This document shows, piece after piece, positions 6,141 to 22,149 of a stretch of 50,505 bases of DNA. Source of the stretch: a virus. The notes beneath the pieces are model-generated. The model was not told the DNA's origin, did not search any database, and worked only from the letters and a program-made list of their open reading frames with translations. Numbering within the stretch: position 1 is the stretch's first letter; every line of letters begins with the position of its first letter. Location of the stretch: IMG/VR virus record IMGVR_UViG_3300021957_000056, positions 1 to 50,505 of that record; one strand, 5' to 3'. Made by a program: the position numbers and the translations under genes.

Positions 6141-7874
6141 TTATGCTCCAAAAGTTGCACCTGTTGGTTCAACAACGAAGTCTAATACTATGAATTCTGC
6201 TGTTTTAGCCGGCTGAATGTAGATTTGACCTACTAATTGGTTTCTATCTATTACGTCAGCTGTATTGTTAGTATCGTCCATTACTACTCTGTAAGCGTAA
6301 AGACCTTGTCTCTGTGTTACTGAGTCTAAGAATGGATTAACTGCTGATAAGAATTTATTTCTTGTTGTTATTGTATTTTGCTCAAATACTAACGTTTGTG
6401 CTTGATCTCCAATAAACTTCTTAAGATCAATCAATAATCTTCTTACATTTACTCTATCTAAAGAACTTGCTTTAGTCTGTAATGTTTTCTGACCAAATAT
6501 TGCAATACCTGTTCCTGGGAATGTAGCAATTGGATTAACTTTAGAATCGTATAATGTATCTCTATCGTTTCTAGTTAATTTTCTTTCTGCTTGAATCACT
6601 CCTGGTATTCCACCTCTTACAAGTCCTGCAGGTGCAAACCATGGTGCTGCTGCTCCATCTGTGAATGCATATACTCCTGGAATGTAAACTGATGCTGGTA
6701 CCCATACGTTCTTACCTGTCGATGATGCTGTTTGCAACCAAGGCCAGTATGCTGCTGCATATGAACTATTTAATAAGTCTGCTTTACCTGTTACGTTAGC
6801 TACTGAAGCTCCATATCCGAATAAATCAACTACTGCGATACAATCTCCTCTAGTCTCTGCTAATGAAATTACTTTATCTACAGTCGCACTGTGGTTATTT
6901 TTATTTAATCCTGGTGTTGATATTACGTTGAATTTATATTCGTCTGTATTTTCTAAGATACTAATAATATCTGTATATCCAGCTTCTACAACCCCTTGGT
7001 TGTTAGTATTAATGTTTTCAAAGAATTTGTTTTCATTTGCTGCTGGAATATCTCCTGTTGCACCGTAGAATGATCCAGATGATGCTACCGGTAGAGAACC
7101 AGTATATGCTGCAGTAGAAACTGTTACTCCGTCATTAGCTAGATAATCAATTGTAGTACCAGGAACTGATGGTATTCTAATATAATTAGAACTGTTTGCA
7201 TAAGATCCTGAAGATGCTACATATTTTACTCCTGCTCCATCTGTACCAATTTGAATATTTGAATCACCTACTTTCTTTTGTATAAAGCTATCTGCATTAG
7301 GGTCTAGACTTAAGTTATTAAACGTCTCTAAAATAACTTTGTTCTTGTGACTATCATCTCCTCTTCTTACTGAAAGTGTAAATGTTCCTTTTGTACTGTT
7401 TACGTTAGATACTTCCCATCTTAAGTTATCTATAGATCCTGATACTAGTGATCCATCTGAATTTTCTCCTCCATATGTTGCTGAGGTCTGGTTATTGTAT
7501 ATAGTACCTTTACCAATTGTCTTAATAGTAAATGGTTGTGTACTTCCATTGTCTGATGCTGATACGTGTGTGTTATCTGCTTCAGCAAATGTTCCTGTCA
7601 CTACTCTAGATACTAGACAAGAGTTACCTCCTTGAGAGAAGTAAGACTTTACTGCAATTGATGTTAAGTATTCATAAGAATCGGATCCTGATGTTACAGT
7701 GTCTCCAAATTTTCTTACGTATTCATTATATGAGGTAACAACTGTAGGTACTTCTACTGGTCCTTTGACTGTAGGTCCTATAATTGCTGCTCCTGCTTCG
7801 ATAGGTGCTGGGGCGATAAATGAGATATCATTTTCTCTCTGAAATACACCTGGTGAGACGATTGTTTCTGCCAT
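6141..7874 (-). CDS. 18: contractile tail sheath protein
   Basis: A 577-residue protein, somewhat shorter than T4 gp18 (659). The start MAETIVSPGVFQRENDIS, the early 'GAAIIGPTVKGPVEVPTVV', 'YNEYVRKFGD', 'KSYFSQGGNSCLVSRVV' and the C-terminal 'GQIYIQPAKTAEFIVLDF' are classic sheath features. The conserved C-terminal domain (about 390-577) makes the sheath mesh; the middle (about 120-330), rich in Ser/Gly/Asn, is the exposed variable insertion. Unlike T4, where 18 and 19 precede portal gene 20, this pair is separated from the head genes by the fibre region and the modification cassette. Two motif copies lie upstream. Confidence 0.95.
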   Translation of the reverse strand: MAETIVSPGVFQRENDISFIAPAPIEAGAAIIGPTVKGPVEVPTVVTSYNEYVRKFGDTVTSGSDSYEYLTSIAVKSYFSQGGNSCLVSRVVTGTFAEADNTHVSASDNGSTQPFTIKTIGKGTIYNNQTSATYGGENSDGSLVSGSIDNLRWEVSNVNSTKGTFTLSVRRGDDSHKNKVILETFNNLSLDPNADSFIQKKVGDSNIQIGTDGAGVKYVASSGSYANSSNYIRIPSVPGTTIDYLANDGVTVSTAAYTGSLPVASSGSFYGATGDIPAANENKFFENINTNNQGVVEAGYTDIISILENTDEYKFNVISTPGLNKNNHSATVDKVISLAETRGDCIAVVDLFGYGASVANVTGKADLLNSSYAAAYWPWLQTASSTGKNVWVPASVYIPGVYAFTDGAAAPWFAPAGLVRGGIPGVIQAERKLTRNDRDTLYDSKVNPIATFPGTGIAIFGQKTLQTKASSLDRVNVRRLLIDLKKFIGDQAQTLVFEQNTITTRNKFLSAVNPFLDSVTQRQGLYAYRVVMDDTNNTADVIDRNQLVGQIYIQPAKTAEFIVLDFVVEPTGATFGA

Positions 7875-7902: not shown

Positions 7903-7910
7903 TATAAATA
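7903..7910 (-). promoter_or_regulatory. TATTTATA motif, sheath-proximal copy
   Basis: Coding strand CATATATTTATATAAGAC, ending 28 nt before the sheath ATG at 7874. It is the nearer of two copies in this gap. Confidence 0.5.
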
Positions 7911-7958: not shown

Positions 7959-7966
7959 TATAAATA
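7959..7966 (-). promoter_or_regulatory. TATTTATA motif, sheath-distal copy
   Basis: Coding strand ACTCTATTTATATACG, 21 nt after the last cassette gene ends. Two copies before the sheath gene would suit a very highly expressed message; this is inference. Confidence 0.45.
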
Positions 7967-7987
7967 GAGTGTTATTTACTGAAAATA

Positions 7988-8239
7988 TTATTTAAAAGGA
8001 GTGAAAGTTCCAGTTTCTGTATCTACGGATCCTCTTCCGTATTTCACTTGAAGATCCTCTGCATATTTTTTTTCTAATTCTAAAGTTTCGTCATAAAATT
8101 GTCTTACCTTAACTTTTTTACTTTCAACTTTAATTTCGTGAAATCCTATCTCTGATAGTTCTTCCTTCATGGCAGCTCTTCTTAACTGTATTAATTCTAA
8201 ATTTTTTAGCTCTTGCTCTGTTAATTTAATTGGTTTCAT
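7988..8239 (-). CDS. small helical phage protein, unknown
   Basis: An 83-residue protein starting MKPIKLTEQELKNLELIQ. Residues 1-65 are charged and helical (likely coiled coil), ending with 'KYGRGSVDTETGTFTPFK'. I know small proteins of this shape (helical start, then 'KYG...V..ETG') from marine phages but no function. It is the last gene of the cassette unit. Its ATG overlaps the preceding stop by 4 nt, so it is translated with that gene, but it may belong functionally to the tail unit. Confidence 0.7.
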   Translation of the reverse strand: MKPIKLTEQELKNLELIQLRRAAMKEELSEIGFHEIKVESKKVKVRQFYDETLELEKKYAEDLQVKYGRGSVDTETGTFTPFK

Positions 8240-8877
8240 ATATGGTTATCTGGTATTAGTAGGTCTGTATCTAAGATAAGAAATAATTTTTTTCTTTCCA
8301 ACCATTCTTTCCAGAAAATACTACCTTCATAATCGGCTCCATATATTTTCTGTAGGTTAGTGTTTAAGTTTAACATTTCTGACTTAAATTTCTTTTCCTC
8401 TATTTTAAATGCTTTTTCGAAAGCTTTACTATATCCTGTGAATAATCTTTCATCTAATGTTTGATAATATATTGAACCAAATATACATTCTTCTTTATTT
8501 ACGTTATCAAGTAAAGGCCTACTTTGGATTTTAGCTTTTTTAAAATAGCGATTAATATCTCCTTTATATTTTATATTATCAATATTAAGATTAGGTTTAA
8601 ATTTTATAATTTTTTCATACTTATCAAAAACATTAATTAAATTAATAGCTTTCCAAGTAGAGTAGAAATAAGAATATAACTTATAATCGTATATAGGTTT
8701 TTCTACATTTATTTCAAAACTATTACAATACTTTTTATACCTATTTGCTTTATTTATCCACCTTTGATTACTATCGGTATCCCATGTATGTATATATACG
8801 TCTGTCTGTTTATCTAGAAAAGGAATAATATTATCCGATAGGTTATATAAAAAACCAGATATAATTAAAGCCTTCAT
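8236..8877 (-). CDS. glycosyltransferase-like protein of the modification cassette
   Basis: A 213-residue protein. It begins MKALIISGFLYNLSDNII and contains 'DVYIHTWDTD' (about 26-35), 'YSYFYSTWKAINLI' and 'KIIKFKPNLNID', with a late 'YGADYEGSIFWKEW'. A beta-alpha start followed by 'HTWDTD' and 'KFKPN..I' resembles small phage and capsule GT-like proteins, but there is no certain DxD metal site: 'DTD' at 33-35 is a candidate. Its start overlaps the radical-SAM stop upstream by one base. Call by context and shape; it could be non-catalytic. Confidence 0.5.
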   Translation of the reverse strand: MKALIISGFLYNLSDNIIPFLDKQTDVYIHTWDTDSNQRWINKANRYKKYCNSFEINVEKPIYDYKLYSYFYSTWKAINLINVFDKYEKIIKFKPNLNIDNIKYKGDINRYFKKAKIQSRPLLDNVNKEECIFGSIYYQTLDERLFTGYSKAFEKAFKIEEKKFKSEMLNLNTNLQKIYGADYEGSIFWKEWLERKKLFLILDTDLLIPDNHI

Positions 8878-10367
8878 TAATTTCTCCCTAAATCAAGTCT
8901 AGTCCATTTATCTTTTAGGTTTCTATTCTTTTTAAGAAGGTCTGGTTTATATTCTGTAGTTTCCCAGCCTTCCATACCTCCTGGTGATAGTTGAACGTCT
9001 TTTATACTTTTATCAACCTCAATAGAATCGTACCATTCAGCAAGCATTGGAAAAGTCTTTTTAAAGTCCTTACCTCTTCGAACATCGTACTGCTCATAGA
9101 AAGATTTAAAGTCATGAAAGTGTTTATCCTTATCTGCCTCTGCTCTTGCATGTCCTTGATCAACTCCATCTACATAATCAATAACTCTTTGAGTTTGAGA
9201 AATCTCGTGCTCTAATAGTAATCCTGAGTCCCTGTGTTTATCTAGCCAAACTTGTACTTTTTCAACAGCTTCTTTTTTAACATTTTCAGGTAAGTTAAGA
9301 GGGGACATAAATGCAGGCCATCTTAAAAAATTTAAATCTAAAGTTGGCATATTTGGTCCATATTTCTTTTTGAGCTCTAACATATCGTCCATAAACTCTG
9401 TCATAGACATTAAAGAGAGTCCTGATACTGTCATCATAACTACTATTTGACGTATATTAGCTTCTTCTATCATTCTTACTACATTAGACCTCCACTTATC
9501 ATAATCTATCCCATCTCTTAAGTACTCAGCATGAGGACCTAAAGATTCGTTAGAAGTATAGATATCGTATGATTCAATATCTAATACGTGAGTAGTTTCA
9601 ATAAGCTTATCTATTAAAATATCCTTAACACCTAAATTAGAATTAATTGATAAATTTAAATTAGGAGCTGGTTTATCTGCGACCATTGCTAAAAATTTCC
9701 AAAACCCTGGACTAGTAGAAGGTTCTCCTCCTGTTATTCTTAATGTCTGTAGATCTTGAGATAAACTAGGCCACCATCTTAAGAAAGCATCTACATATGG
9801 ATTACCGTCTATATATTTATTTTCTGGGTCAGCCCAAGTTCCGTTTTGTTGATATGCTCCTGCTGTAAGAGTTTGAAATTTTTGATAAGGACCATTTTTA
9901 TCTATATCTTTACCCCAAGTAGTTGAGTAACTAGGATTACAGTATGAACAAGCAAAATTACAAGATCTATCAAAAGATAGTTCTACAGTACGTAGATTAA
10001 TATTAGTATCCCAAGGAGTATTAGGAAGTGCCTGTATATCGGCTGTTTTATATTCTTTACTTCTATATACTCTATCAGATATATTATTTCTTCCTAAATC
10101 TTCTACTTTCCAACAGTAGGAACATTCAGCTGGTCTTTCACCTTCAAGCATCATTTTTCTCATTTTCTTTTTGTGCTTGGTATTATGCAATGCAGATGGA
10201 TTCTCTACTAACTCCTCTACATCTATAGGATGGGGCAACGGAAGGAAACATGATCTTGTGAAACCACTTCCTAGGTCTATAGTTGCGTTGTACCATTTTG
10301 CTGGACAAAATGCCTTATTTACTGAGTTGAGGTTATCCTCTTTCCATTTAATTAATCTATCTGACAT
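8877..10367 (-). CDS. radical SAM protein with N-terminal twitch-type cysteines (4th of four)
   Basis: A 496-residue protein. The radical-SAM motif is C136-x3-C140-x2-C143 (CNFACSYC), with the SAM-binding GGEP at 213-216. N-terminal cysteines C21, C40, C82 and C85 are spaced as in proteins that place a half-SPASM ('twitch') auxiliary iron-sulfur site before the radical-SAM barrel. Such enzymes make a 5'-deoxyadenosyl radical and usually modify peptides or proteins. Its N-terminus has one cysteine (C40) where two of its paralogues have a CC pair. A variable insert between motif and GGEP (about 150-205) is longer than in the others. Substrate unknown. It follows the third radical-SAM gene by one base. 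Confidence 0.85.
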   Translation of the reverse strand: MSDRLIKWKEDNLNSVNKAFCPAKWYNATIDLGSGFTRSCFLPLPHPIDVEELVENPSALHNTKHKKKMRKMMLEGERPAECSYCWKVEDLGRNNISDRVYRSKEYKTADIQALPNTPWDTNINLRTVELSFDRSCNFACSYCNPSYSTTWGKDIDKNGPYQKFQTLTAGAYQQNGTWADPENKYIDGNPYVDAFLRWWPSLSQDLQTLRITGGEPSTSPGFWKFLAMVADKPAPNLNLSINSNLGVKDILIDKLIETTHVLDIESYDIYTSNESLGPHAEYLRDGIDYDKWRSNVVRMIEEANIRQIVVMMTVSGLSLMSMTEFMDDMLELKKKYGPNMPTLDLNFLRWPAFMSPLNLPENVKKEAVEKVQVWLDKHRDSGLLLEHEISQTQRVIDYVDGVDQGHARAEADKDKHFHDFKSFYEQYDVRRGKDFKKTFPMLAEWYDSIEVDKSIKDVQLSPGGMEGWETTEYKPDLLKKNRNLKDKWTRLDLGRN

Positions 10368-10368
10368 A

Positions 10369-11652
10369 TTATGTTAATTTATAAACGTTATATAACTCTT
10401 CAGCTATTGGGAATGTATATTTAAAGTTTTGTTTTCTTGATTTATCTAATAATTGTGTAGTCCTTCTAAATGTTCTCCACTCTTTTGGATTAGATTTATT
10501 AGGAAGTTTTAAAGTTGTAATAATTTTTTTAACTTCTTCAAATGACTGTAAGATACGTGCATGCTGCAAGTCATTTTTTACTCTATTTTGAGAATAAGGT
10601 GCTTCTCTTTTCTCTAATTCTACTTCTAAGTACTCTAATACTTTAGGTTTTATATCATCTGGTAGGTTTGTAATACTAAGATATACTGGGTTATAAACAA
10701 AACTAATAAATAACTTAATATCTCTATCTAGGGCATAATCCAACATTTCGAATACATACATTACATTTAAAGCTGATATAGTACAAGCTATTTCTAATAG
10801 TAGTTTATTTTCACTATTAGGATCTTCTTCTATTTTTTTACGAGTTTCTAACCATTTGGTAATATTATTATTTACTGTCAACCAGTTTCCAGGGTATCTT
10901 AAATAATGAAATCTATCTCCTACTCCATCTAAACTAAACCCTATTCTTGTCATATGAAAAGAAGTAAGTATATCAATATATTTTGGAGTAACAATAGTAC
11001 CGTTAGTATTAAAGCTCATAAATTGAGTCTTTGCATATCCTTGTTTTACACAGTAGTCTAATATTTCCCATTGCTTTTTCATTAACATAGGCTCTCCTCC
11101 GTATATATCTAATTGCTGTATTTTAGGTAAAATTTCTTTTAAGTACTTCCATATACTACTTTCGTCTAAATATGCTTTAGAGTATTCTAAAACTTCTGCG
11201 TCTAGTTCTTTTTCAGTGTAGTTAGGATGTAGTACTTTATGATCATTTCTCCACTTAGAAGAAGCGGATATATGGCAAATTCTACAAGCTAAATTACATG
11301 TATTCCCTAAATTTAACTCTAAGAAAAATATATCGTCACCACTACGTGTAGGTATAGCTCTATTAGTTTCACTAAAAGTCATATTATCTCTAACTCTTTT
11401 ACTTTCAAACCCAGCATCTTCTGCATCCCAGCAGACTTTACATGCTGATGATCTTATATCATTTTTAAATTCTTTTAACATAGTCTGTCTTGTATGACTA
11501 TTTAAAGCATCATTTATAGATACATCTCCTGCTTTTATCAACTCTCCTTCTTCATTTCGAAAAGGTGCATTAAAAGTATGACAACATGCAAAAAATGTTC
11601 CATTAGTTGCTAATCTTAAACCCTTTTCTAAATTTTTACACTCTATAGCCAT
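10369..11652 (-). CDS. radical SAM protein with N-terminal twitch-type cysteines (3rd of four)
   Basis: A 427-residue protein. N-terminal cysteines are C5, C23-C24, C71 and C74; the radical-SAM triad is C119-x3-C123-x2-C126 (CNLACRIC) and GGEP is at 185-188, followed by 'FNTNGT' and 'FSLDGVGDRFHYLR', typical barrel strands. The N-terminal region 'LATNGTFFACCHTFNAP', with 'GDVSINDALNSHTRQTM', is the usual layout of N-twitch radical-SAM proteins (short beta hairpin with CC, then 'W/L..' helix, then CxxC). The C-terminal 120 residues are helical and rich in Lys. It probably acts on a protein or peptide; the partner is unknown. The start ATG shares a base with the previous stop. Confidence 0.87.
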   Translation of the reverse strand: MAIECKNLEKGLRLATNGTFFACCHTFNAPFRNEEGELIKAGDVSINDALNSHTRQTMLKEFKNDIRSSACKVCWDAEDAGFESKRVRDNMTFSETNRAIPTRSGDDIFFLELNLGNTCNLACRICHISASSKWRNDHKVLHPNYTEKELDAEVLEYSKAYLDESSIWKYLKEILPKIQQLDIYGGEPMLMKKQWEILDYCVKQGYAKTQFMSFNTNGTIVTPKYIDILTSFHMTRIGFSLDGVGDRFHYLRYPGNWLTVNNNITKWLETRKKIEEDPNSENKLLLEIACTISALNVMYVFEMLDYALDRDIKLFISFVYNPVYLSITNLPDDIKPKVLEYLEVELEKREAPYSQNRVKNDLQHARILQSFEEVKKIITTLKLPNKSNPKEWRTFRRTTQLLDKSRKQNFKYTFPIAEELYNVYKLT

Positions 11653-12677
11653 TATATCGTAAGGTTATGTCTTATATTATTTGCAGGAGGTAACTTCCTG
11701 TATTCTTCTAATAAATAATTGTACTCTGGGTGTTCTGGGTCTCCTACGTCAACTTTTTTAAAGTCTTCAGCATTATATGTTCCCCAATTAACTACTCTAT
11801 TATAAAATATTTCCCAATTAATATGTGTATGTCCAAAAAATCGTTCAGCCATTGTATGAAAATCTTCCATTTCTGTATAATTATCTTTTTGTACTACAAA
11901 CGAAAGTGTTACTCTATCTAAAGTTTTAATTTCTGATATATAAGCTAGGTTATCCATTAGGTCGTCCCACTTTCCTCCTAACCTAGTATAATTTTCATAC
12001 GTATCTTTATAAGCTGCATCTATAGAAATTTCTGCTGACTTAATAAACTTATGGACTTTAGTCATTCTAGACCAGTTAGAGTGATTCCATAAAGTAGCAT
12101 TGGTATGCAAATGCATACTTTTTAAATTAGGGTATAGAGAAGGATCAAAATTCATCATCCACTTTCTAAATGTTCTAGAAAAAAACGGATCACCTGAACC
12201 TGTACATTCTATATGTTGTAGTCCATCAGCTAATTGTGTTTCTATAGCTTCCATTATTTGCTCTGTTCTCTTTCTTTCAGCTCCTTGATAGTTTATCTTT
12301 TCTAACCTACAACTAGGACATTTTAAATTACAACTTTGATCAAAATTAAATTTTACTGATTTAGGATAAGGATCAATAGCAAAATCATCTATTTTTTTAA
12401 GGAATTCTTCTTTCTTCATAAATCCATCTGACTTGCCTTCTTTTAGTCCGGTAAGTTTAGGACATCTTGATTCTATACAATACTTGTAAGAACCGTCAAT
12501 CATACTCCTTCTTATATTATCTGCTTTCTCTGATTGCCAATTTTCAGTGATTTTCATAGGATCACCTAGATTTTCCGGTAGCCAGTTAGGGCAACACATA
12601 TAACTTTTATAATCGAAAAACTCTGCGAATTCGAAAGGCTGTAAGCAAACATAATCTTTTTTGTCTAGAGCTGCCAT
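11652..12677 (-). CDS. divergent, shorter radical SAM protein (2nd of four)
   Basis: A 341-residue protein. The radical-SAM triad is C116-x3-C120-x2-C123 (CNLKCPSC), but the usual GGEP is replaced by TGSGDPF (159-165), with an extra C158 just before it. N-terminal cysteines C11, C28-C29, C67 and C72 form a twitch-like set, the last pair spaced C-x4-C rather than C-x2-C. It lacks the long C-terminal helices of its paralogues. TGSGDP-type proteins can still be active: in other families the glycine, aspartate and proline of this loop bind SAM. The order of the four genes makes gene duplication within the phage the simplest origin. Confidence 0.82.
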   Translation of the reverse strand: MAALDKKDYVCLQPFEFAEFFDYKSYMCCPNWLPENLGDPMKITENWQSEKADNIRRSMIDGSYKYCIESRCPKLTGLKEGKSDGFMKKEEFLKKIDDFAIDPYPKSVKFNFDQSCNLKCPSCRLEKINYQGAERKRTEQIMEAIETQLADGLQHIECTGSGDPFFSRTFRKWMMNFDPSLYPNLKSMHLHTNATLWNHSNWSRMTKVHKFIKSAEISIDAAYKDTYENYTRLGGKWDDLMDNLAYISEIKTLDRVTLSFVVQKDNYTEMEDFHTMAERFFGHTHINWEIFYNRVVNWGTYNAEDFKKVDVGDPEHPEYNYLLEEYRKLPPANNIRHNLTI

Positions 12678-14074
12678 TATATTAGTTTATTAACATTATA
12701 AGATTCCCCTGTTTTATCGTCTTTTGGAAGAGGAATAGTCTGGTCTCTAAAAAATATTTCTTCTTTTTCGTAGTTACCTATAGTTGCTCTAATTTCTTCA
12801 AACCATTCAGTATACTGTGGGTTAGTTTCTAAAAAGTTTTCTTTTCTTCTTTTATCTAAAACTGTAGTAACTCTTAATAACTCCCTTCTATTAATCTGTA
12901 GGGTAAGTAAATCGTAAGGACTTTCAGAAAATAAATACTGTATCCACGAAGATAGTGCCATTTCAATAGCTTGTTTATACTCTTCCTTATCTAACTGATT
13001 AAAATATTCTTGAAGTTTAGTAAGTAGTTCGTCTTTTAATTCATCTGGTAGTATTCTAATATCGTAACATGGAGGTCCTGATAGAAAATTATTAAATACT
13101 ATATTACCTGGTTTAACTCCAAGTTTAAAAATCGTTTCAAATAAATCTGTAACGTAAAATACATTTAGAATACTAATAGTAGGTGATACAAATACTTCTA
13201 TACCGTCAGCTATACAGGTCTTTATGTTATTGTAAACAGTATCCCACTTAGTTCCATGTCTTGCCACCTCAGCTAGTTTACCTGTTGCATCTAGTGAAGC
13301 AAATAATTGAACTTTACCTTTTGGATCTTTTTGAAACTTACTCCATAGGTCTTGTAAATCCCATTTTTTAAATTTTATATGACTAAAATTAGTATTGTAT
13401 CTAAGTAACACATCGGTTCTACCAGCTTCAATTAGCTTTTCTAATATCATATAATGTTCGTCCATGATGAGGGGTTCTCCACCAGCAAAATATATCTCTT
13501 CTACTTCATCTATATGTTTATGCACATAGTCAAATATGTCTACTTTGCTTTCACTCCTAAAATTCATTAATCCAGATTGTGATTTACCGTGTATTGCGAT
13601 TTCATCATCTACCCACTTTGAACTAGCAAAAGTTCCACACATTCTACATTTAAAGTTACATATATTAGACCATCTAAAGTCCCAATATTTAAGAGAAAAT
13701 TGTTTATTATATCCAGTTTCAGGATCAGTATCTTTTAAAAGAGGTTTGATATGTTTTTTAAACTTATCTGTAAGGTTAACTCTAGGGCTAACTGCTCCGT
13801 TATCATCCATTAAGTAACACCTACCACAGTGCATTGGACGTTCACCCTTAAGCATTTTTTTACGAATGGTTTTCATAGTTAGTCCATTCCAAGCCTCTTC
13901 CATTGTCATATCCTTTGTATTACCTAAAGGCATATCATGAGGAGTCATACAGCATGGCTGCATATTACCATTAGGTTGAACCATCAAATGTGTCCAGGGT
14001 AATATACAGAAAGAAGGACTTATTGGAGTGTCCTTACTTTTATTAATCAGCTCTAATGTTTTGCTGCTTTTCAT
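12677..14074 (-). CDS. radical SAM protein with N-terminal twitch-type cysteines (1st of four)
   Basis: A 465-residue protein that shows the family layout most clearly. N-terminal 'FCILPWTHLMVQPNGNMQPC' holds C23 and C41-C42; 'MPLGNTKDMTMEEAWNG' is the typical 'GN...S.EEIWN' spacer; 'GERPMHCGRCYLMD' holds C83 and C86. The radical-SAM triad is C139-x3-C143-x2-C146 (CNFKCRMC) and GGEP is at 198-201. This matches radical-SAM proteins with a twitch domain placed before the barrel. The start overlaps the GT7-LamG gene stop by 4 nt, tying the radical-SAM group to the glycosyltransferase group in one translation unit. Confidence 0.9.
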   Translation of the reverse strand: MKSSKTLELINKSKDTPISPSFCILPWTHLMVQPNGNMQPCCMTPHDMPLGNTKDMTMEEAWNGLTMKTIRKKMLKGERPMHCGRCYLMDDNGAVSPRVNLTDKFKKHIKPLLKDTDPETGYNKQFSLKYWDFRWSNICNFKCRMCGTFASSKWVDDEIAIHGKSQSGLMNFRSESKVDIFDYVHKHIDEVEEIYFAGGEPLIMDEHYMILEKLIEAGRTDVLLRYNTNFSHIKFKKWDLQDLWSKFQKDPKGKVQLFASLDATGKLAEVARHGTKWDTVYNNIKTCIADGIEVFVSPTISILNVFYVTDLFETIFKLGVKPGNIVFNNFLSGPPCYDIRILPDELKDELLTKLQEYFNQLDKEEYKQAIEMALSSWIQYLFSESPYDLLTLQINRRELLRVTTVLDKRRKENFLETNPQYTEWFEEIRATIGNYEKEEIFFRDQTIPLPKDDKTGESYNVNKLI

Positions 14075-15492
14075 AATTCTATATCTAACATCTTAGCCCA
14101 AGGGGTTAATATTTTTTCCCTAACTAATTTATATTTTAATTGTGCTATTCCGTCGTTTTTATAATCTATTTTATTTTGCTGCATTCCTAATACATACTTT
14201 CTTTCATTTGCTGCAGTAGTTTCACCTTTTGCCCATTTACCGTCTACCAAACCTTCATCTTCATGAGGTAAACATCTCATTCTACCTTCAACTCTATGAG
14301 GGATAATTGAATTAGGTATTTTAAATTCTTCAGTTTTTATTTCAGTATTAAAAGCGTTAAACTTAGAAATAGGTTTATTTAAATCTAAATCAACTACTAA
14401 TTCATCTTTTGGAATATTACTATCTAAATTGATGACTTCATCAGGTGTTAATGCCTTTTTCCAACAAAAAACTTTTGCAATATCTCCTTTGAAAAACTTA
14501 AATCCATCTGAATCTTCAACAGATGGGGATGTTCCTAAATAAATATCTTGTTGTCCATAACTTTTTAATTTACCTGTCCAAGATAAAGGAGATGGACTAC
14601 CGTATCCTCCTTTAGAGTCTATTTCTACACCATTAAGGTATAAATGAGATAGTTTATTTTCAAAATCTATAACAGCTGTAATCCAGCTCCATTGACTATC
14701 GTACCTTTTTACCCACATGTAGTTATGGTTATTAAAACTATTCCAAAAAGTAAGTGTCAGGGCCCTAGAGTTATTAAACGATATACCGTAGTCGTAACCT
14801 GGGATTCTAAAGATAGGGTATTCTACGTATTTAGTATCTTTATCTCCTATAAGAAATATTTTATTTTTGTCAGGTTGTTGAAAAGATCTACATAATATTG
14901 AAACTGTATGAGATTTAGATGTTAACCCTCTATACTTTCTTTCAAAAGGTAATTTTGCATAAGAGTTATTACCTGATAATGAAAGGTATTTCTGTTTTAT
15001 CGGATTTTTAGTTAAGTATGATACATTAGTCATACCTTCTTTATGACATCTCCAAAATAAATCATCATCTTCCATTCCCCAATCCCAATAATCATTAGAG
15101 TATCCATTAGTTCTTTCAACTTGTTCTTTGGTAAATAAGACTGCTCCTCCAAAGTACTCATGATACTTAAGTTGATAGTCCATTTGTTGTATTTTAGTAG
15201 CTATATGTCTAGGTGCATCTGCAGGATAAGAATAATCAGCTCCTCCATCTTCTTCAGGAATCATATCTATATCGTGCCATACTATATAATCACAGCCGTC
15301 CTCAAAAGCATGTTTTGCTCCTATATTTTTTGTTGCACCTCTATTAAAGAGTTTATCATCTACTTGATGAACTATATATATCTGAAAGTCTATGCCTTGC
15401 TCTTTCAAGTACTTACCTATCTTAGGTATGAACTCATGCATATGTAACTCTCTGTTTCTATACGGTACACAAACTCCTAACTTATGACCCAT
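14071..15492 (-). CDS. GT7 glycosyltransferase with inserted LamG-like domain (2nd copy)
   Basis: A 473-residue protein in three parts. Residues 1-165 are a beta-1,4-galactosyltransferase-like (GT7) catalytic half: 'VCVPYRNRELHMHEFIP', 'VWHDIDMIPEE' (metal-binding D74-x-D76), 'YFGGAVLF' (114-116 FGG) and 'WDWGMEDDDLFWR' (WGMEDDD 138-144). Residues about 167-355 are a LamG/concanavalin-like beta sandwich ('YLSLSGNNSYAKLPF', 'LYLNGVEID', 'DIYLGTSPS', 'FFKGDIAKVFCWKKALTPDE'). Residues 402-473 return to the GT7 C-terminal lobe ('GRMRCLPHEDEG', 'NDGIAQLKYKLV', 'AKMLDIEL'). It would transfer a sugar, with the lectin-like part holding the glycan or protein acceptor. It is a paralogue of the gene just upstream. 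Confidence 0.85.
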   Translation of the reverse strand: MGHKLGVCVPYRNRELHMHEFIPKIGKYLKEQGIDFQIYIVHQVDDKLFNRGATKNIGAKHAFEDGCDYIVWHDIDMIPEEDGGADYSYPADAPRHIATKIQQMDYQLKYHEYFGGAVLFTKEQVERTNGYSNDYWDWGMEDDDLFWRCHKEGMTNVSYLTKNPIKQKYLSLSGNNSYAKLPFERKYRGLTSKSHTVSILCRSFQQPDKNKIFLIGDKDTKYVEYPIFRIPGYDYGISFNNSRALTLTFWNSFNNHNYMWVKRYDSQWSWITAVIDFENKLSHLYLNGVEIDSKGGYGSPSPLSWTGKLKSYGQQDIYLGTSPSVEDSDGFKFFKGDIAKVFCWKKALTPDEVINLDSNIPKDELVVDLDLNKPISKFNAFNTEIKTEEFKIPNSIIPHRVEGRMRCLPHEDEGLVDGKWAKGETTAANERKYVLGMQQNKIDYKNDGIAQLKYKLVREKILTPWAKMLDIEL

Positions 15493-16922
15493 TATGTTCT
15501 AACATTTAATTTTATATATTCAGGTTTTTCTTCTACCGATAAGGTAAAATACTTACAATTTGTTAATCCATCATTTTCTAAATTACTCTTATTATTTTTA
15601 GTTAATGAATTATAATATAATTGATTTTCTCTACTTTTCCAATCTACCCAGTATCCGTCTATATAACCTCCTTCTTTATGTTCTAATAATCTATATTTAC
15701 AACCTCTTCTCTTAGGCATTTTAAAAGATTTAGAACTTCCTGTGGTAAGGTCTTTTAATTCTACATTATTTAATTCTCCAATTGGTTTATTATTTGCTAA
15801 GTTTATTAATTTATTATTTTTACCTATATGTCTACTATCTAAACTACATATTATATTTTCTTTTAAATAATTAAACTCTTCTGCTTCTGTGATTATTTTA
15901 TCATGGTAATTATTAGATAAATGTTTTACTTCGCTACGAGTTAATATCTTATCAAATACATTAAAACTATCAATATATCCTTTAAAAAATTTAGGATGTT
16001 CTTTTCTATTAGGATCACCAGTTCCTAAATATAGGTATGGTTCAGCATTATACTTTCTAATATGGTACTTATCCCAACTTACAGTATCAATTTTTTTACC
16101 ATTAAAATAAAATTCTATTTTTCTTTCTTTTGGATCAATAGTAACAGCAGTTCTTACAGGTATATTAGGAATAAACTCTGTAGTTGATGATAGAGTTACA
16201 TCGTTTACTAAAAATAATTCAAATTTATATGTACTAAATGAATTATAAGATAAGTTTAAATCATAACCTGGTATAGCAAATACAGCATATTCATCTGTTA
16301 TTTCATTAGCATCACATATTATAGGATCTGGGTAAAAAGAGGTAACGAAAGATATTGGTCTAACAAAAGTAAAGTTATTAGGTATCTTAATATAAGAGTC
16401 TTTACCGTTAAAATATAAAGCTGGTTTATCTAATGAAGGTATACTGTACCCTATATCATCTAAAACTACATTTTTCTCCTTACATCTAAATAGTATATCA
16501 TTATCCTCAAAACCCCAACCTCTGTATTTATTAGAATATCCATTTATGTCTCTGAAAGTAGAAACTGGGAATAGTGTAACGCCTCCGAAATAATCTCTTT
16601 GTATAGTTCTTTTAAAGTTACCAAGAGGTTCAAACTTATTAGCTAACTGTAACGGAATATCGCTATACTCATAACTTCCTTTTACAGGTATAAGATCTAC
16701 ATCATGAAAAATAACATAATCGCAACCTCTTTTCTCAGCTTCTATAAAACCTATATTGAGAAGTTTAGCTCTATTGAACTTTTTTTTATCTTCTTGATGA
16801 ACGACAATAACGGTATAATCAATCTTAGGGTAGACGTTTAGAAATTGATCTAACTCTCTAATAAATACTCTAAGTTGTTTTGCACGATCTCTATAAGGAA
16901 TTATTATTCCTAACCTATGCAT
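15492..16922 (-). CDS. GT7 glycosyltransferase with inserted LamG-like domain (1st copy)
   Basis: A 476-residue protein with the same three-part plan as its neighbour. The GT7 start is 'LGIIIPYRDRAKQLRVFI'; 'FHDVDLIPVKGSY' gives the D74-x-D76 metal site; 'DYFGGVTLFPVSTFRDINGY' and 'YRGWGFEDNDILFRCKEK' are the acceptor and catalytic loops (WGFED 136-140). Residues about 166-345 are LamG-like ('ALYFNGKDSYIKIPN', 'EFYFNGKKIDTV', 'PYLYLGTGDP', 'FFKGYIDSFNVFDKILTRSE'). Residues 407-476 close the GT7 fold ('GCKYRLLEHKEGG', 'LENDGLTNCKYFTL', 'PEYIKLNV'), matching the end of animal B4GALT proteins. The two copies differ at most positions, so the duplication is old. Confidence 0.87.
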   Translation of the reverse strand: MHRLGIIIPYRDRAKQLRVFIRELDQFLNVYPKIDYTVIVVHQEDKKKFNRAKLLNIGFIEAEKRGCDYVIFHDVDLIPVKGSYEYSDIPLQLANKFEPLGNFKRTIQRDYFGGVTLFPVSTFRDINGYSNKYRGWGFEDNDILFRCKEKNVVLDDIGYSIPSLDKPALYFNGKDSYIKIPNNFTFVRPISFVTSFYPDPIICDANEITDEYAVFAIPGYDLNLSYNSFSTYKFELFLVNDVTLSSTTEFIPNIPVRTAVTIDPKERKIEFYFNGKKIDTVSWDKYHIRKYNAEPYLYLGTGDPNRKEHPKFFKGYIDSFNVFDKILTRSEVKHLSNNYHDKIITEAEEFNYLKENIICSLDSRHIGKNNKLINLANNKPIGELNNVELKDLTTGSSKSFKMPKRRGCKYRLLEHKEGGYIDGYWVDWKSRENQLYYNSLTKNNKSNLENDGLTNCKYFTLSVEEKPEYIKLNVRT

Positions 16923-16923
16923 G

Positions 16924-17100
16924 TTATTCTACGTCTTTAGGTACCATTTTATGAAACTCTTGTAGATAGAACTGTATTCTATTGTCCCAGTCTTCCTTAT
17001 CTACTTCTTCAAACCATAAACTTAGAGTATCTATACTAGTGGCTATTTTTTCTAGTGCTTTTACTTTTCTAGTTTCTAATTCTAATTCTTCTTTTGTCAT
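16924..17100 (-). CDS. 58-residue acidic protein inside the cassette
   Basis: A complete ATG-to-TAA frame encodes 58 residues, from MTKEELELETRKVKALEK to EFHKMVPKDVE. Its ATG overlaps the preceding glycosyltransferase stop (ATGA), and it ends 1 nt before the next ATG, so it fills an otherwise empty 175-base gap in an operon with no other gaps. It is helical, acidic, cysteine-free, with 'DTLSLWFEEVDKEDWDNRIQ' in the middle (two Trp). Likely a small partner protein or regulator. A role as a substrate of the radical-SAM enzymes is possible but has no direct support. Confidence 0.8.
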   Translation of the reverse strand: MTKEELELETRKVKALEKIATSIDTLSLWFEEVDKEDWDNRIQFYLQEFHKMVPKDVE

Positions 17101-17936
17101 ACGTTTACTATTAATTCTGTTAATTTATCCCAGTGTGGATAATCATTATAATCAATATACGAAAAATTCTTCAATTCTTCTATAAAAAACTCAGGTTTTT
17201 TTATATCTATTCTATCACCCTGGTCTTTTATAGCATCGTACATTTTTTCATATTCCCAGTGCCAACTATAATCTTCTCTTGTATCTACTACTTCTCTTAT
17301 TCTTTGCATACAGGTAGAATCCCACTTAAAATGATGTACTTGTGTAAATACATGATCTATAGGCATTCTTTTTCTATGCCATCTACCCCAGCTATTTTTT
17401 TGAGGTGTAAAATAAGCATAATGTTGGCCAGAAGTTACATCTTGAAACCCTTTCATTAAAGTAATTTTATTAGGACAAGCTTGAGATAAAGGATATCTAA
17501 AGAAACCAGCTAATGGAAAGGCTTTATGAATATCCGTATCTCTCGTTATTTCAGGAAAAGTACCATTAGGGCCTAGACGGTCTAAGAACCCTCCTGTGAC
17601 AAAGTGAAAATCATTGTCTTCACAGTCCTTTATTATATCTCTAACATCGTATGGATAGACTTGTAATTCATCATCATCTGACACTATCCACCATTCGTCA
17701 GGTTTAGTTTTTTTTATATCATTGTATATTTCTGTTACTCTATCCCAATTATATCTAGGTTCAGTAATTACCTTAAATGGTTCGATTCCTAGTTTCTCTA
17801 CTTCTTCTAATATACCATCATTTTCATCTTGTCTATATACTGCTACATATACTTTATCTACTATATTTTTATAGTGTTTAAGCATATGTGGTAATATATG
17901 AGTATTTCTACCTACAACTGTAACTAAATTAAGCAT
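17097..17936 (-). CDS. GT-A (family 2-like) glycosyltransferase
   Basis: A 279-residue protein. The start 'LNLVTVVGRNTHILPHMLKH' with 'VDKVYVAVYRQDEND' is the first beta-alpha-beta of a GT-A fold, and 'EWWIVSDDDELQVYP' (D87-D89) is the nucleotide-sugar/metal DxD site. Residues 95-190 are an acceptor region ('FLDRLGPNGTFPEI', 'GQHYAYFTPQ', 'DHVFTQVHHFKWD' at about 200), where 'HHFKWD' is common in GT2-like proteins of this kind. Overlaps on both sides (8 nt with the methyltransferase gene, 4 nt with the 58-residue gene) put it in the cassette. It would transfer a sugar to the same acceptor as, or another from, the GT7 pair. Confidence 0.8.
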   Translation of the reverse strand: MLNLVTVVGRNTHILPHMLKHYKNIVDKVYVAVYRQDENDGILEEVEKLGIEPFKVITEPRYNWDRVTEIYNDIKKTKPDEWWIVSDDDELQVYPYDVRDIIKDCEDNDFHFVTGGFLDRLGPNGTFPEITRDTDIHKAFPLAGFFRYPLSQACPNKITLMKGFQDVTSGQHYAYFTPQKNSWGRWHRKRMPIDHVFTQVHHFKWDSTCMQRIREVVDTREDYSWHWEYEKMYDAIKDQGDRIDIKKPEFFIEELKNFSYIDYNDYPHWDKLTELIVNV

Positions 17937-18693
17937 GCTTTATAAATGTTATTCCTGTACTAGAAGGTTTATCTTTTACTATCCCCTCATTAAAGAAGTT
18001 AAACTTTTGCCATTCGTTCCCTATTTCTGAAATAAATTTAGAAGGTCCTTCTGTAAAATCTTGGTAATTATGTTTACTGTCTTCTGAAATTATATGATTT
18101 TTAGAGTAGTTCTTATCAGTATCATGTACTGAGATTATACCGTTTTTATTTAATAGCTTACTATATAGTTCAAAATCTTGTTTAATATTTTCATACGAAT
18201 GTCCTGCATCTATATGAAGATAATCAATTTTTATATCTTCTTTTACAAAAAAGTTATAATAAGCATTTTCTGTTGTTTCTTTTATATACCTTGGGTAAAA
18301 ATGAGATCTTAGAAATGAGCTATATTCAGTCCAATCAGTTTCCCCTCCTATCTTATTATCTGCATCTACTATAATAGTAACTCCTATATCACCCCAGTTG
18401 TTATGTTTATCTCCTTCAAATATATTTTGATCATGTAGATCTATTCTAGCTTGAGTCATAATACGAGGAATAAAACCTCCTCCACTACCTAAACACACAC
18501 ATGTTTTAGCTCTTATATATTGAATAGTTGAGTAGATTAGTAGACCATCCCCCATATCAAAATCAGATGCTCCATGTGTCCACCTGTATTTAACAGGAGT
18601 ATATTCAATATATTCTTTACCTTCAGTATCTACTTTATACTCTTGATTATTGGTTATAAACTTACTTATGAAATCTTTATTTGTTATAGACAT
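17929..18693 (-). CDS. class I SAM-dependent methyltransferase
   Basis: A 254-residue protein of the Methyltransf_24 kind. Motif I is 'CVCLGSGGGFIPRIM' (65-79), the strand-4/5 region is 'IDYLHIDAGHSYENIKQDF' (156-174, with D162, H165 and E168), and 'GIISVHDTDKNY' (185-196) is the post-motif 'HD' metal or base pair. The extended N-terminus (1-55) has 'YRWTHGASDFDMGDGLLIY'. Proteins of this kind methylate sugars or small molecules in O-antigen and capsule clusters. In this setting it may cap or modify the sugar added by the neighbouring transferases. It overlaps both neighbours (1 and 8 nt). Confidence 0.82.
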   Translation of the reverse strand: MSITNKDFISKFITNNQEYKVDTEGKEYIEYTPVKYRWTHGASDFDMGDGLLIYSTIQYIRAKTCVCLGSGGGFIPRIMTQARIDLHDQNIFEGDKHNNWGDIGVTIIVDADNKIGGETDWTEYSSFLRSHFYPRYIKETTENAYYNFFVKEDIKIDYLHIDAGHSYENIKQDFELYSKLLNKNGIISVHDTDKNYSKNHIISEDSKHNYQDFTEGPSKFISEIGNEWQKFNFFNEGIVKDKPSSTGITFIKHA

Positions 18694-19562
18694 TATCTTC
18701 TTGGTAAACTACTTAAGTCTAAGTTAGGTAAATTTATACAATTTTCCAAATGTTTTATATGATTTACGTATGAAAATCCTTTTTTGTTATTTAAATACCA
18801 TCCTTTTAGTGGTCCGTAGTGTTTAAAGTATACCTCTGATTCTTCCGCTGTCCATATACCTTTATCATGTTCACTGCCCCAATCCCAATCTTTGCAGTTC
18901 CAGTAATTAGATATTAGTGAATTATACTCTATATTCTTTTTATCTAATAGATGTCTTAATAGTAATTGTTCTGAGAATATAAGATATTGTGAATTAGGTG
19001 CTTTTAAAGATGTAAATTCTTCCATCATCTTTAAGCTCATTTCAGCATATTCTTTTGTAAAATCTGGATCTGGTAAGTTAAGGAAAGATACATTTACAGA
19101 AGATGGTTTCCATCTTTCTTTTATCGATAATTTACTAACATATTCATCTATAAAGGTTGGGTAATACCCTTTGCCTTCTTCAAGATTACAAACATATACC
19201 TTATCTAAATCTAATAAATGTTTTACTGGTTTATAAAAATGGGTATCATTATCCATTATTATAGCAGGTTCGTTTAACTCTGCTAAAACCTCTACTTTAG
19301 TTGCAGCCCAAAAAATATCTTTATTTATTCTTCTAGGCTTAGGAAGAGTTTTTATAGAGTCCCAATATTCTAATAGCCTATGTTTATTTAAAAAATCTAT
19401 TGTAAGATCATCTGCATATAAAACACACTTATCATCTCTGTTGTGCTTTTTCCATAAGTGTACAGATGCTAATAAAAGAAGAACATTAAATTTACTATCG
19501 ATATAATAATCGTTAGAATTATAATTCTTTTTTATATTCTCTAAAACCCATATTACTGTCAA
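18693..19562 (-). CDS. GT-A-like glycosyltransferase, first cassette gene (TTG start)
   Basis: A 289-residue protein. 'FNVLLLLASVHLWKKHN', 'CVLYADDLTIDFLNKH' and 'PAIIMDNDTHFYKP' (DND 104-106) outline a GT-A fold like capsular and GT8-like sugar transferases; 'EVYFKHYGPLKGW' lies near the end. The chosen start is TTG at 19562 (MTVIWVLENIKKN). The frame opens just upstream after TGA, with no ATG or GTG before the conserved first strand, and nearby ATGs are out of frame. It begins 17 nt after the adjoining fibre gene ends. It heads the modification cassette, which has no motif of its own here. Confidence 0.75.
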   Translation of the reverse strand: MTVIWVLENIKKNYNSNDYYIDSKFNVLLLLASVHLWKKHNRDDKCVLYADDLTIDFLNKHRLLEYWDSIKTLPKPRRINKDIFWAATKVEVLAELNEPAIIMDNDTHFYKPVKHLLDLDKVYVCNLEEGKGYYPTFIDEYVSKLSIKERWKPSSVNVSFLNLPDPDFTKEYAEMSLKMMEEFTSLKAPNSQYLIFSEQLLLRHLLDKKNIEYNSLISNYWNCKDWDWGSEHDKGIWTAEESEVYFKHYGPLKGWYLNNKKGFSYVNHIKHLENCINLPNLDLSSLPRR

Positions 19563-19579
19563 AACCTTTCATTTTTTTA

Positions 19580-20035
19580 TTACGGTGTTACGTGTGTTGT
19601 TGTGAAGTGTGCATAGTATACAGTCGCTTGAGTAGTACTTGTTGTAATAGTAAGTGTAGCGTTAGTACTAATTTGAGAGCCGCCACCTCCTGATGCCGTT
19701 CTCCAACTATCGAATGTATAAGGATAAGTTGCCGAAGCAACTAATGTGGGGTTATTCTCCCCTAAATCCATATTTTTTATGACTATTGTACCTGATGTAG
19801 CTCCTACTGAGTAAGGGTTAGTTAATTCAATTGTACCTCCAGTACCTGCAGTAGCACTACCATAAAATACGTCAGTGTTTTGTAATGTACTTACCGAGAA
19901 GGGTGCTGACTGAGCTGGATGAAAGTCATTTAGTGCAGTATCCAATTGAGCGTTTGTATCACTAGCAACATTATTTGCCCAAATATCGAAAGTTGAATAT
20001 GCTATGTTAGTTGCTCCGTAAGTATGGTATGACAT
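19580..20035 (-). CDS. small beta-rich virion-type protein with B-repeat-like end
   Basis: A 151-residue protein starting MSYHTYGATNIAYSTFDI. The second half ('YPYTFDSWRTASGGGGSQIS', then 'ATVYYAHF') resembles the Listeria-Bacteroides/InlB-type surface repeat (FxxW...G...IS...T...YAHF). This, plus its place below the S74 fibre, suggests an attached fibre-tip or accessory adhesin. No signal peptide. The call is by motif only. Confidence 0.55.
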   Translation of the reverse strand: MSYHTYGATNIAYSTFDIWANNVASDTNAQLDTALNDFHPAQSAPFSVSTLQNTDVFYGSATAGTGGTIELTNPYSVGATSGTIVIKNMDLGENNPTLVASATYPYTFDSWRTASGGGGSQISTNATLTITTSTTQATVYYAHFTTTHVTP

Positions 20036-20045
20036 AATTTACTTT

Positions 20046-20594
20046 TTAAAGTATTTCTATTTTCTTGCTAGGAAATATTTTCCCTAATTCTATTTTTATT
20101 TTTTCATATCCAAACTCAAAGATATTAGCTGCAAGTTTAGGATCAATCATTTTTCTCATCTCCTTCTTCGTTCCAGTTTCAATTTTCTCAATTGATGTGA
20201 TGGTTCTATAAAGTTTAATTTCTTCCCCATTTTCATCAAAGCTGGTATAAGGTACTTCTTTTGTAACTTCTTTTTCCTCTAATATAGGAATTGTTACTTC
20301 TTCTTCTCTTGCAAGATCTACCTCTATTAAATTTGGTACAGTTTTCTCTACTCCTTCTGATTCATCATTTTCATAATAAATCACTTTATCTCTCACTAAA
20401 CCTACCATCGGTCTATCTTCTTCTTCTACGTAAGTCTTATTAAACCTACTTGCATGCTCCTTATCTATCCAGTATGTCAATTGAAACCTTGCTTTTGATG
20501 TAACTCTGTTTACTTTGAAACTTTCTATTCTAACGTACACTTCATGAGAAGGTCCGTTACTTGTTTCCAAGTCTACGTTTAAAATGTAACCCAT
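20046..20594 (-). CDS. beta-rich protein downstream of the S74 fibre, unknown
   Basis: A 182-residue protein starting MGYILNVDLETSNGPSHE. An N-terminal beta domain (residues 5-60, 'VYVRIESFKVNRVTSKARFQ') is followed by an acidic segment and a Lys/Glu helix ('KEMRKMIDPKLAANIFEFGY'). Phage proteins of this shape often sit next to fibre genes. It starts 10 nt after the S74 protein stop; no catalytic motif is visible. A role in fibre assembly or attachment is inferred from context. Confidence 0.55.
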   Translation of the reverse strand: MGYILNVDLETSNGPSHEVYVRIESFKVNRVTSKARFQLTYWIDKEHASRFNKTYVEEEDRPMVGLVRDKVIYYENDESEGVEKTVPNLIEVDLAREEEVTIPILEEKEVTKEVPYTSFDENGEEIKLYRTITSIEKIETGTKKEMRKMIDPKLAANIFEFGYEKIKIELGKIFPSKKIEIL

Positions 20595-20604
20595 TAACTT
20601 TTTT

Positions 20605-22113
20605 TTATTTACTTAACTCGTCAACTTTAGCTGATAATTCTTTAACTGCTTGAATTAATACAGCTGTCAATTTAGCATAATCAACTGCTAAATGTCCGTG
20701 CTCTCTCTCAGTTACTATTTCAGGATACTGTGCTTTTACTTCTTGTGCTATTACCCCTATGTCGTGACCTTCGTGAGAGTGTATTGTTTGTTTTTCTTCA
20801 TCAGATAATTCTTTCCAATCAAAAGATACACCTCTTAAAGCTTTTACTTTATCTAATGCACCTCCTAATTCTTCTACATTCTCTTTTAATCTTTCATCCG
20901 AAGAATAGAATGATGTAATATCGTTAGTAGCTCTAATTTCTCCTGAAGTACCAGATGCTGCTGTACCTACACCAAAGCTATCAAATTGTACATCGTCTGT
21001 TGTATCTAATGCATGTACAACACCGGAAACTGTATCGTCTGTTAATGTTAAGTTAATACCAGTCTGTCCTGTTGTATCTGAAACTGCAAAGTTAGTATTA
21101 TCAGAAATATCAATTGATGATAAAGTTGATATTGAACCTAACCCTAAAGTTGTTCTTGCTGCTGCTGCATCTGCATCATCTACAAGTGTTTTACCAAATG
21201 CTGATATTGTTGTTGATGCTGGTAAAGAGAATGTTAAGATATCTGCATCTGTATTACCTGTTGTTAATACTTGTGCTTCTGATCCTGTTGCTCCTGCAAT
21301 CCAGTAATTGTTAGTTCCATCCCATAATAGTGATCCTGTAGCAGGTGAATCGTTAACTGCTAAACCACCTAATGTAGAAGCAACTCCATTAACTGCTATA
21401 ATATTATCACCGATATTTAGTGTGTTTGAATTAACCGTTGTAGTAGTACCGTTTACAGTTAAATTACCTGATAATGTAAGTCCTGTAAATGTTGGAGAAT
21501 CTCCTGTTCCTACTCCTAGTGATGTTCTAGCTGTAGCTCCTGTTTCTAATACAAAGTTAGAACCATCCCCTACTATTATACCTCCATCTGTTACTGCTAA
21601 TCCTGCAACGTCCGCCAGTTGTGCATCATATGCCTGTACATTTGTTCCGATAGTTAATCCAAGTGATGTTCTAGCTGTAGCGCCTGTCTCTAGAACAAAG
21701 TTGGAACCATTTCCTACTATAAATCCTCCGTCTGTTACTGCCAGTCCTGCAACATCTGCAAGCTGTGCATCATATGCTTGAACATCTGATCCAATTGCTA
21801 GACCTAAATTTGTTCTTGTACTATTACCATCAGCAAGTGTCAATGCACCTCCTGCTGCTACAGTACCATCTCCTGATACATTACCAAATAAAGTATCCTC
21901 TAAATTACTATAGGTTACTTTCTTTTCAGTCCCTGCATCGGAAAATAAAAAGTTATCTGCCTGATCAATTGTTGCACCTCCTAGTGCAGTAAGTGAATCC
22001 AGGTTAAATGAAGTGGCTGCTACTCCTGTTAAGTTAGTACCATCTCCTATGAATGATCCAGTAAACGATCCTGTTAAGGCTGTGTTTATACCGGTTGCGC
22101 TATCTATTCTCAT
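20605..22113 (-). CDS. tail fibre with C-terminal S74 intramolecular chaperone
   Basis: A 502-residue fibre. It begins MRIDSATGINTALTGSFTGS with the usual TGS-rich trimeric start and 'FIGDGTNLTGVAATSF'. Residues about 110-200 hold tandem 48-residue units ('QAYDAQLADVAGLAVTDGG', 144-nt DNA copies from 21518 and 21662, plus a partial copy). Residues 405-502 are a peptidase S74 chaperone: 'SDERLKENVEELGGALDKVK', then 'FDWK', 'GHDIGVIAQEVK' and 'AVDYAKLTAVLIQAVKEL'. In this family the chaperone guides trimer folding and cuts itself off just before the SDERLK serine, so the mature fibre would end near residue 404. The gene starts a unit preceded by a TATTTATA motif. Confidence 0.85.
   Translation of the reverse strand: MRIDSATGINTALTGSFTGSFIGDGTNLTGVAATSFNLDSLTALGGATIDQADNFLFSDAGTEKKVTYSNLEDTLFGNVSGDGTVAAGGALTLADGNSTRTNLGLAIGSDVQAYDAQLADVAGLAVTDGGFIVGNGSNFVLETGATARTSLGLTIGTNVQAYDAQLADVAGLAVTDGGIIVGDGSNFVLETGATARTSLGVGTGDSPTFTGLTLSGNLTVNGTTTTVNSNTLNIGDNIIAVNGVASTLGGLAVNDSPATGSLLWDGTNNYWIAGATGSEAQVLTTGNTDADILTFSLPASTTISAFGKTLVDDADAAAARTTLGLGSISTLSSIDISDNTNFAVSDTTGQTGINLTLTDDTVSGVVHALDTTDDVQFDSFGVGTAASGTSGEIRATNDITSFYSSDERLKENVEELGGALDKVKALRGVSFDWKELSDEEKQTIHSHEGHDIGVIAQEVKAQYPEIVTEREHGHLAVDYAKLTAVLIQAVKELSAKVDELSK
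21518..21805 (-). repeat. two tandem 144-nt (48-residue) fibre repeats
   Basis: The DNA at 21518-21661 recurs at 21662-21805 at 144-nt spacing with scattered third-position changes, encoding 'LADVAGLAVTDGG(F/I)IVG' repeats of the S74 fibre shaft. It is in-frame protein repetition, not a mobile element. Confidence 0.8.
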
Positions 22114-22149
22114 AATATTTTTACTTTAAAGTTATATCGGTTATTCTAA

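Follow-up and report, generated by a model that had tools for sequence, protein, structure and literature searches.

Why does a T4-like phage carry glycosyltransferases, a methyltransferase and four radical-SAM (rSAM) enzymes in a single block between its fibre and tail genes, and what would those enzymes modify? The window in which this block lies is the whole of a 50,505-base IMG/VR virus record (IMGVR_UViG_3300021957_000056), whose minus strand is tiled by long ORFs. The record represents a marine virus of bacteria; its sheath shares 67% identity with the one in Flavobacterium phage immuto and is far less similar to those of other cultured phages, so the host is probably a member of the Bacteroidota.

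Gene Content and Boundaries of the Unit

As first drawn from the ORF list, the block comprises 12 minus-strand genes (19562 to 7988), transcribed in the order GTa289, MT254, GTb279, p58, GT7L_A, GT7L_B, rSAM1, rSAM2, rSAM3, rSAM4, GTc213 and p83; nine of the 11 junctions are overlaps of 1 to 8 nt, and the other two are gaps of 1 nt. On the 5' side lie p151, p182 and a fibre gene with a Peptidase_S74 chaperone, and on the 3' side the sheath, tube and hub genes. The features are, in transcribed order:

22150 to 22157, minus strand: TATTTATA, promoter-like motif 5' of the fibre gene; presumed start of the unit formed by fibre and cassette
20605 to 22113, minus strand: fib502, tail fibre with a C-terminal Peptidase_S74 intramolecular chaperone (PF13884, 62.7 bits)
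20046 to 20594, minus strand: p182, conserved, nearly always tied to the cassette and likely fibre-associated; no Pfam or PHROG match
19580 to 20035, minus strand: p151, small beta-sandwich (Ig-like/bacterial-repeat-like) protein; candidate acceptor or tip protein
18693 to 19562, minus strand: GTa289, GT-A-like, DUF6734 family
17929 to 18693, minus strand: MT254, class I methyltransferase (Methyltransf_24)
17097 to 17936, minus strand: GTb279, GT2-like glycosyltransferase
16924 to 17100, minus strand: p58, small, uniformly conserved protein
15492 to 16922, minus strand: GT7L_A, GT7 (beta-1,4-galactosyltransferase-like) with a LamG domain
14071 to 15492, minus strand: GT7L_B, GT7 with LamG apparently inserted ahead of a C-terminal His-containing part
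12677 to 14074, minus strand: rSAM1, N-terminal twitch/SPASM and radical SAM
11652 to 12677, minus strand: rSAM2, divergent radical SAM
10369 to 11652, minus strand: rSAM3, N-terminal twitch and radical SAM
8877 to 10367, minus strand: rSAM4, N-terminal twitch and radical SAM
8236 to 8877, minus strand: GTc213, glycosyltransferase-like by resemblance
7988 to 8239, minus strand: p83, small sheath-module protein outside the cassette
7959 to 7966, minus strand: TATTTATA, presumed sheath-operon promoter, with another copy at 7903 to 7910
6141 to 7874, minus strand: gp18, tail sheath
5619 to 6104, minus strand: gp19, tail tube

An earlier note on this DNA had placed the cassette between fibre and tail genes and described it as a run of nearly always overlapping genes, and both statements hold; its boundaries, however, needed correction at either end. 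The 83-residue gene had been counted as a member, but p83 adjoins gp18 in 40 of 41 sheath loci and also lies beside the sheath gene in immuto, a phage that lacks the cassette, and it is therefore a gene of the sheath module. Upstream, the limit had been set at 19562; the true unit starts at the S74-type fibre gene, reaching to about 22113 and including p182 and p151. In immuto (vB_FspM_immuto) the tube and hub genes are collinear with those of the window, whereas p83 is preceded by a lysozyme gene and short genes instead of the cassette. Among the 41 sheath loci, rSAM genes lie upstream in 18 and different genes in the remainder, so that the locus has the makeup of a T4-like hypervariable or host-recognition region: a variable block by the sheath gene, within the structural module and accompanied by fibres. 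The G+C content of the cassette (8236 to 19562) is 30.2%, against 36.6% for the upstream structural genes, which is consistent with a mobile module.

Promoter-Like Motif and Transcription

The motif TATTTATA occurs in 14 minus-sense (coding-strand) copies in the window, 12 of which fall within the 2.4% that is intergenic DNA, and no coding-strand copy is found from 7966 to 22150. Counted across loci, the motif stands within 120 nt before gp18 in 28 of 31 cases, gp19 in 17 of 17, the hub gene in 14 of 17 and the fibre gene in 23 of 63; the corresponding counts for cassette genes are 0/247 for rSAM4, 0/81 for rSAM3, 0/83 for GTb and 0/59 for GTa. For the sheath-anchored set the count is 68/72. 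Because it precedes gp18, gp19 and the fibre gene but almost never a cassette gene, the block probably shares the fibre's late expression, and from its sequence context the cassette looks to be co-transcribed with that gene from a late-type promoter. Coding-strand sites lie at 1830, 6120, 7903, 7959, 22150, 22570, 26284, 29190, 34365, 43100, 46076 and 49420; they mark the majority of operon boundaries in the structural module, and the motif is probably the late promoter of the phage group.

Conservation of the Unit

Profile scans of viral contigs returned at least 582 relatives of rSAM4 and 393 of GT7L, of which the 80 top-ranking of each kind were examined, and gene-order statistics were taken over 178 loci. 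The order fibre-p182-p151-GTa-MT-GTb-p58-GT7L-GT7L-rSAM recurs on many of these contigs, and the set is found in numerous uncultured viruses of aquatic origin. The fibre gene is followed by p182 in 54 loci, p182 by p151 in 58 of 59, p151 by GTa in 59 of 59, p58 by GT7L_A in 110 of 110, and both GT7L_A by GT7L_B and GT7L_B by rSAM4 in 105; in the loci read, an rSAM gene lies within five genes of GT7L_B in 119 of 121. These figures show a genuine unit rather than genes adjacent by chance, and they bear on two checks suggested in the earlier note, namely whether gene order is kept in viral metagenomes and whether rSAM and GT genes are associated across phages. GT7L is present in 27 of the 59 rSAM4-anchored loci read that have enough upstream sequence, so rSAM arrays are found in other contexts too.

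The structural genes at the 5' end belong with the enzymes, since 50 of 51 p182 loci continue into p151-GTa and, in a separate search, all 16 full-length p151 loci have GTa289 next; the p182 and p151 queries came from cassette-bearing loci, and some contigs appear in several searches, so these counts are not independent. The exception (L242) carries a p182 remnant with an internal stop at codon 41 directly 5' of p83-gp18 (L242:10001-10480); p151 is missing, and no N_Twi_rSAM protein is found anywhere in the 121,930-base contig. It is, judged from its sequence, a natural near-empty site at which the cassette and p151 were lost together. This co-loss and the p182/p151 pairing show a near-obligate linkage to specific structural genes. 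Cassettes without p151 mostly have other S74 fibres or LamG tip-like proteins just upstream; in L144, p182 directly precedes GTa, and in L290 a diverged p182 lies ahead of a reduced cassette. We also tried distance correlations as a measure of coevolution between p151 and the enzymes and set them aside as not discriminating, because the range for p151 and the cassette enzymes (0.42 to 0.70) is not clearly above that for gp18 (0.51 to 0.65).

Radical-SAM Enzymes and Glycosyltransferases

Each of the four rSAM proteins scores above the Pfam cut-off for Radical_SAM (PF04055) and contains CxxxCxxC. The earlier note had assigned all of them an N-terminal twitch and reported GGEP as well; this stands for rSAM1, rSAM3 and rSAM4, which score 377, 283 and 307 bits against N_Twi_rSAM (NCBIfam NF033640, spanning the N-terminal twitch and the rSAM core; cut-off 170 bits), a model whose name specifies no reaction, but not for rSAM2, a weak and divergent member at 68 bits in which GSGDP replaces GGEP. 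The cluster-binding cysteines are kept across hundreds of homologues, the strict CxxxCxxC pattern being found in 103/104 for rSAM1, 29/29 for rSAM2, 78/86 for rSAM3 and 237/238 for rSAM4, the most frequent rSAM in the cassette family. Pairwise identity among the four is 16-28%, which marks them as old paralogues rather than recent duplicates. rSAM1 has no sequence match in the PDB. Among 50,697 cultured-phage records, the only matches to rSAM1 and rSAM3 come from Vibrio phages and from one marine single-cell virus (~24-26% identity), and rSAM4, GT7L_B, p182, p151 and GTb279 have no relative.

The arrays can be long. In one viral locus (L005:2278-13537), two GT7L genes precede eight rSAM genes interrupted solely by two small LamG-like or unassigned proteins, and genes resembling a 2OG-Fe(II) oxygenase, a GT and an APS kinase follow 3' of the array. 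Three loci binned as Pelagibacterales or Flavobacteriales genomes (L209, L212 and L214) contain the phage cassette; they are probably phage contigs that ended up in those bins. The main cellular carriers among the rSAM4 relatives found are Bdellovibrionota, predatory-bacteria relatives (L179, L181, L182, L192, L206 and others). Their N_Twi rSAM genes form pairs or arrays, some of which, by eye and unscored, lie beside GT- and carbamoyltransferase-like genes; some rSAM4 pairs, as in L182, have no GT neighbour.

The two GT7-LamG proteins were correctly recognized in the earlier note: both exceed the Pfam cut-offs for GT7N, GT7C and Laminin_G_3. Their N-terminal part (residues 3-155 of GT7L_B) gives its best Foldseek alignments to B4GalT1 and B4GalT7, at 33-37% identity and with invariant DxD and WGxED common to both. 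In contrast to these enzymes, the GT7L proteins have no membrane anchor and hold a ~200-residue LamG domain between the N-terminal and presumed C-terminal parts. A GT7 C-terminal part would carry a metal-binding His and a DGL..LKY segment; the conserved tail after LamG, with an invariant His and DG, is collinear with the B4GalT C-terminus, and a second stretch aligns to B4GalT7 at only 3 bits. The C-terminal piece, used by itself as a profile, finds no B4GalT match, and its homology taken separately is not significant, so the suggestion that LamG is inserted within the GT fold comes from the collinear motifs. The same LamG module occurs as a separate small protein 3' of rSAM4 in 23 loci, as well as between rSAM genes, and a second cluster of small proteins near rSAM genes (63 loci) is LamG-like at weak score.

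MT254 passes PF13578 (41.5 bits), in keeping with its initial description as a methyltransferase. The five GT labels fared unevenly: the two GT7 assignments stand, but GTa289 (TTG start, at the position of the family's ATG start) passes PF20508, a Pfam family of unknown function (DUF6734), GTb279 falls under the Pfam GT2 cut-off (24.4 against 27.5) and GTc213 has no Pfam match, so that these three labels denote resemblance only.

Recurrent neighbours of the cassette include an NAD-dependent epimerase, UDP/GDP-sugar dehydrogenase, DegT aminotransferase, dTDP-sugar epimerase, carbamoyltransferase and APS kinase. The NDP-sugar and carbamoyltransferase genes, taken with the GT-side rSAM arrays of Bdellovibrionota, favour rSAM enzymes that tailor sugar rather than peptide. 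BtrN is a known twitch rSAM enzyme that acts on an aminocyclitol.

Possible Targets of the Enzymes

We propose that the cassette is a late-expressed module for building and tailoring glycans that is functionally tied to one fibre set (the S74 fibre, p182 and p151), a reading to which we give about an even chance. Working in the cytosol, the GT-A enzymes (GTa and GTb) and the two GT7 enzymes would lengthen a glycan borne by fibre or tip proteins while the LamG lectin domain holds it during growth; MT254 and the N-terminal-twitch rSAMs would next oxidise, epimerise or otherwise tailor single sugars, and the receptor-binding surface would thereby be tuned or disguised. Phages differ in how many rSAM and accessory genes they have and of which kind, as expected of a diversifying surface structure. 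A simple hydropathy scan of the cassette proteins shows no strongly hydrophobic (membrane-like) segment; together with the cassette's apparent late transcription alongside the fibre gene and its near-obligate pairing with small genes that look structural, this favours the virion as target. The arrangement resembles, by analogy, that of bacterial flagellin-glycosylation islands, in which modifying enzymes adjoin the gene of the glycosylated surface filament.

The same enzymes could instead alter the host LPS or capsule recognized by the linked fibre, blocking superinfection or re-adsorption of progeny. Tight fibre linkage is also expected if the enzymes modify the fibre's receptor, in which case it would represent fibre-receptor matching, and GT genes of the pelagimyophage host-recognition cluster have been read, in the portion of PMC7029224 that treats them, as modifying host O-antigen. 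NDP-sugar genes within linked islands fit such a role, and the Bdellovibrionota rSAM4 relatives beside GT- and carbamoyltransferase-like genes could serve cell-surface glycans. On the other hand, the cassette encodes neither strongly hydrophobic segments nor, as far as seen, a flippase or GtrA-like protein, apparent expression from a late structural operon would be late for superinfection exclusion, and near-obligate pairing with p182 and p151 is not required. The earlier note had considered virion fibres the most likely substrate. Conservation of the cassette and its fibre link do favour virion modification, but because the linkage is also explicable by fibre-receptor matching and by the interpretation in that part of PMC7029224, we go no further than even weight for the virion and regard modification of the host surface as a less probable but serious rival.

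Radical modification of protein, as in RiPP biosynthesis, would have the rSAMs act on a virion protein, at its peptide backbone or its side chains (the conserved Gly-rich C-terminal stretch of p151 being one example), with the GTs serving separately. SPASM/twitch domains are frequent among peptide-modifying rSAM enzymes, and p151 has a conserved WRTA.GGGG region; p151 is, however, Cys-free, some rSAM islands lack it, and the nearest enzyme neighbours are GTs and sugar-nucleotide genes. The expected precursor with a conserved leader and variable core does not appear either: p58, the one small ORF that the cassette contains, is Cys-free and conserved from end to end, shows no leader/core split and was rejected as a precursor. 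We consider this explanation unlikely. p58, always directly 5' of GT7L_A, is a probable adaptor. A role in auxiliary metabolism or in modifying phage DNA, with no bearing on virion or envelope, is more improbable still, because placement, gene order and promoter context track the fibre genes and not replication genes, even though marine-phage rSAM genes are usually classed as auxiliary metabolic genes.

If the virion is the target, p151 and the S74 fibre are the candidate acceptors. The predicted model of p151 is a beta-sandwich (mean pLDDT 77; the N-terminal third is poor) whose fold search gives weak Ig-like, pilin and InlB-repeat matches, none in the PDB and one in the viral library at E<=0.001. 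A p151-like domain also occurs inside a ~960-residue protein of other viral contigs (L361:2394-5276 and L363:2394-5276). We tentatively suggest that one or other of the two is a glycoprotein whose glycan would be built in the cytosol by lectin-split GT7s and finished by rSAMs, in a system widespread among aquatic T4-like phages.

Relation to Known Systems and Implications

T4-like marine phages are already known to carry cassettes of rSAM and GT genes in their hypervariable region (PMC7029224, PMC5332604). The pelagimyophage host-recognition cluster, as outlined in the relevant part of PMC7029224, contains GTs, tail fibres and in some cases rSAM gene cassettes; the g15-g18 hyperplastic region of cyanomyoviruses (PMC2984593, in a passage citing Millard 2009) is a hypervariable block of the structural module; and the available parts of two further accounts report that one T4-like genome holds 12 rSAM genes (PMC5332604) and that rSAM genes are enriched in Tasman Sea phages (PMC7150976). 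The earlier note knew of no described function for such a unit, and the portions of PMC7029224 and PMC5332604 concerned with it indeed report no functional test, but they do note GT and rSAM cassettes. The cassette in the window resembles the pelagimyophage and cyanomyovirus regions in being hypervariable and in lying in the structural module with fibres, GTs and, in some, rSAM genes; it differs from them, as they are described in those passages, in its strongly conserved order, its coupling to one fibre set and its hosts, which are probably Bacteroidota. GT7-LamG, p58, p151 and p182 receive no mention in the sections of PMC7029224 and PMC2984593 on hypervariable regions, and in the virion-glycosylation literature that we searched, no paper describes this cassette. 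What is new is that the order is fixed and coupled to a specific fibre set, as well as the promoter architecture, the case of co-loss, the LamG-GT7 arrangement and the corrected boundaries.

In the parts of the literature at hand, rSAM genes are repeatedly reported as unexplained genes of marine phages (PMC5332604, PMC7150976, PMC7029224). The cassette also reveals enzymes of uncommon build, in which a lectin apparently divides a galactosyltransferase fold. Its tie to a fibre set within one apparent transcription unit turns what would be called auxiliary metabolic genes into a testable hypothesis of virion or receptor modification with named acceptor candidates.
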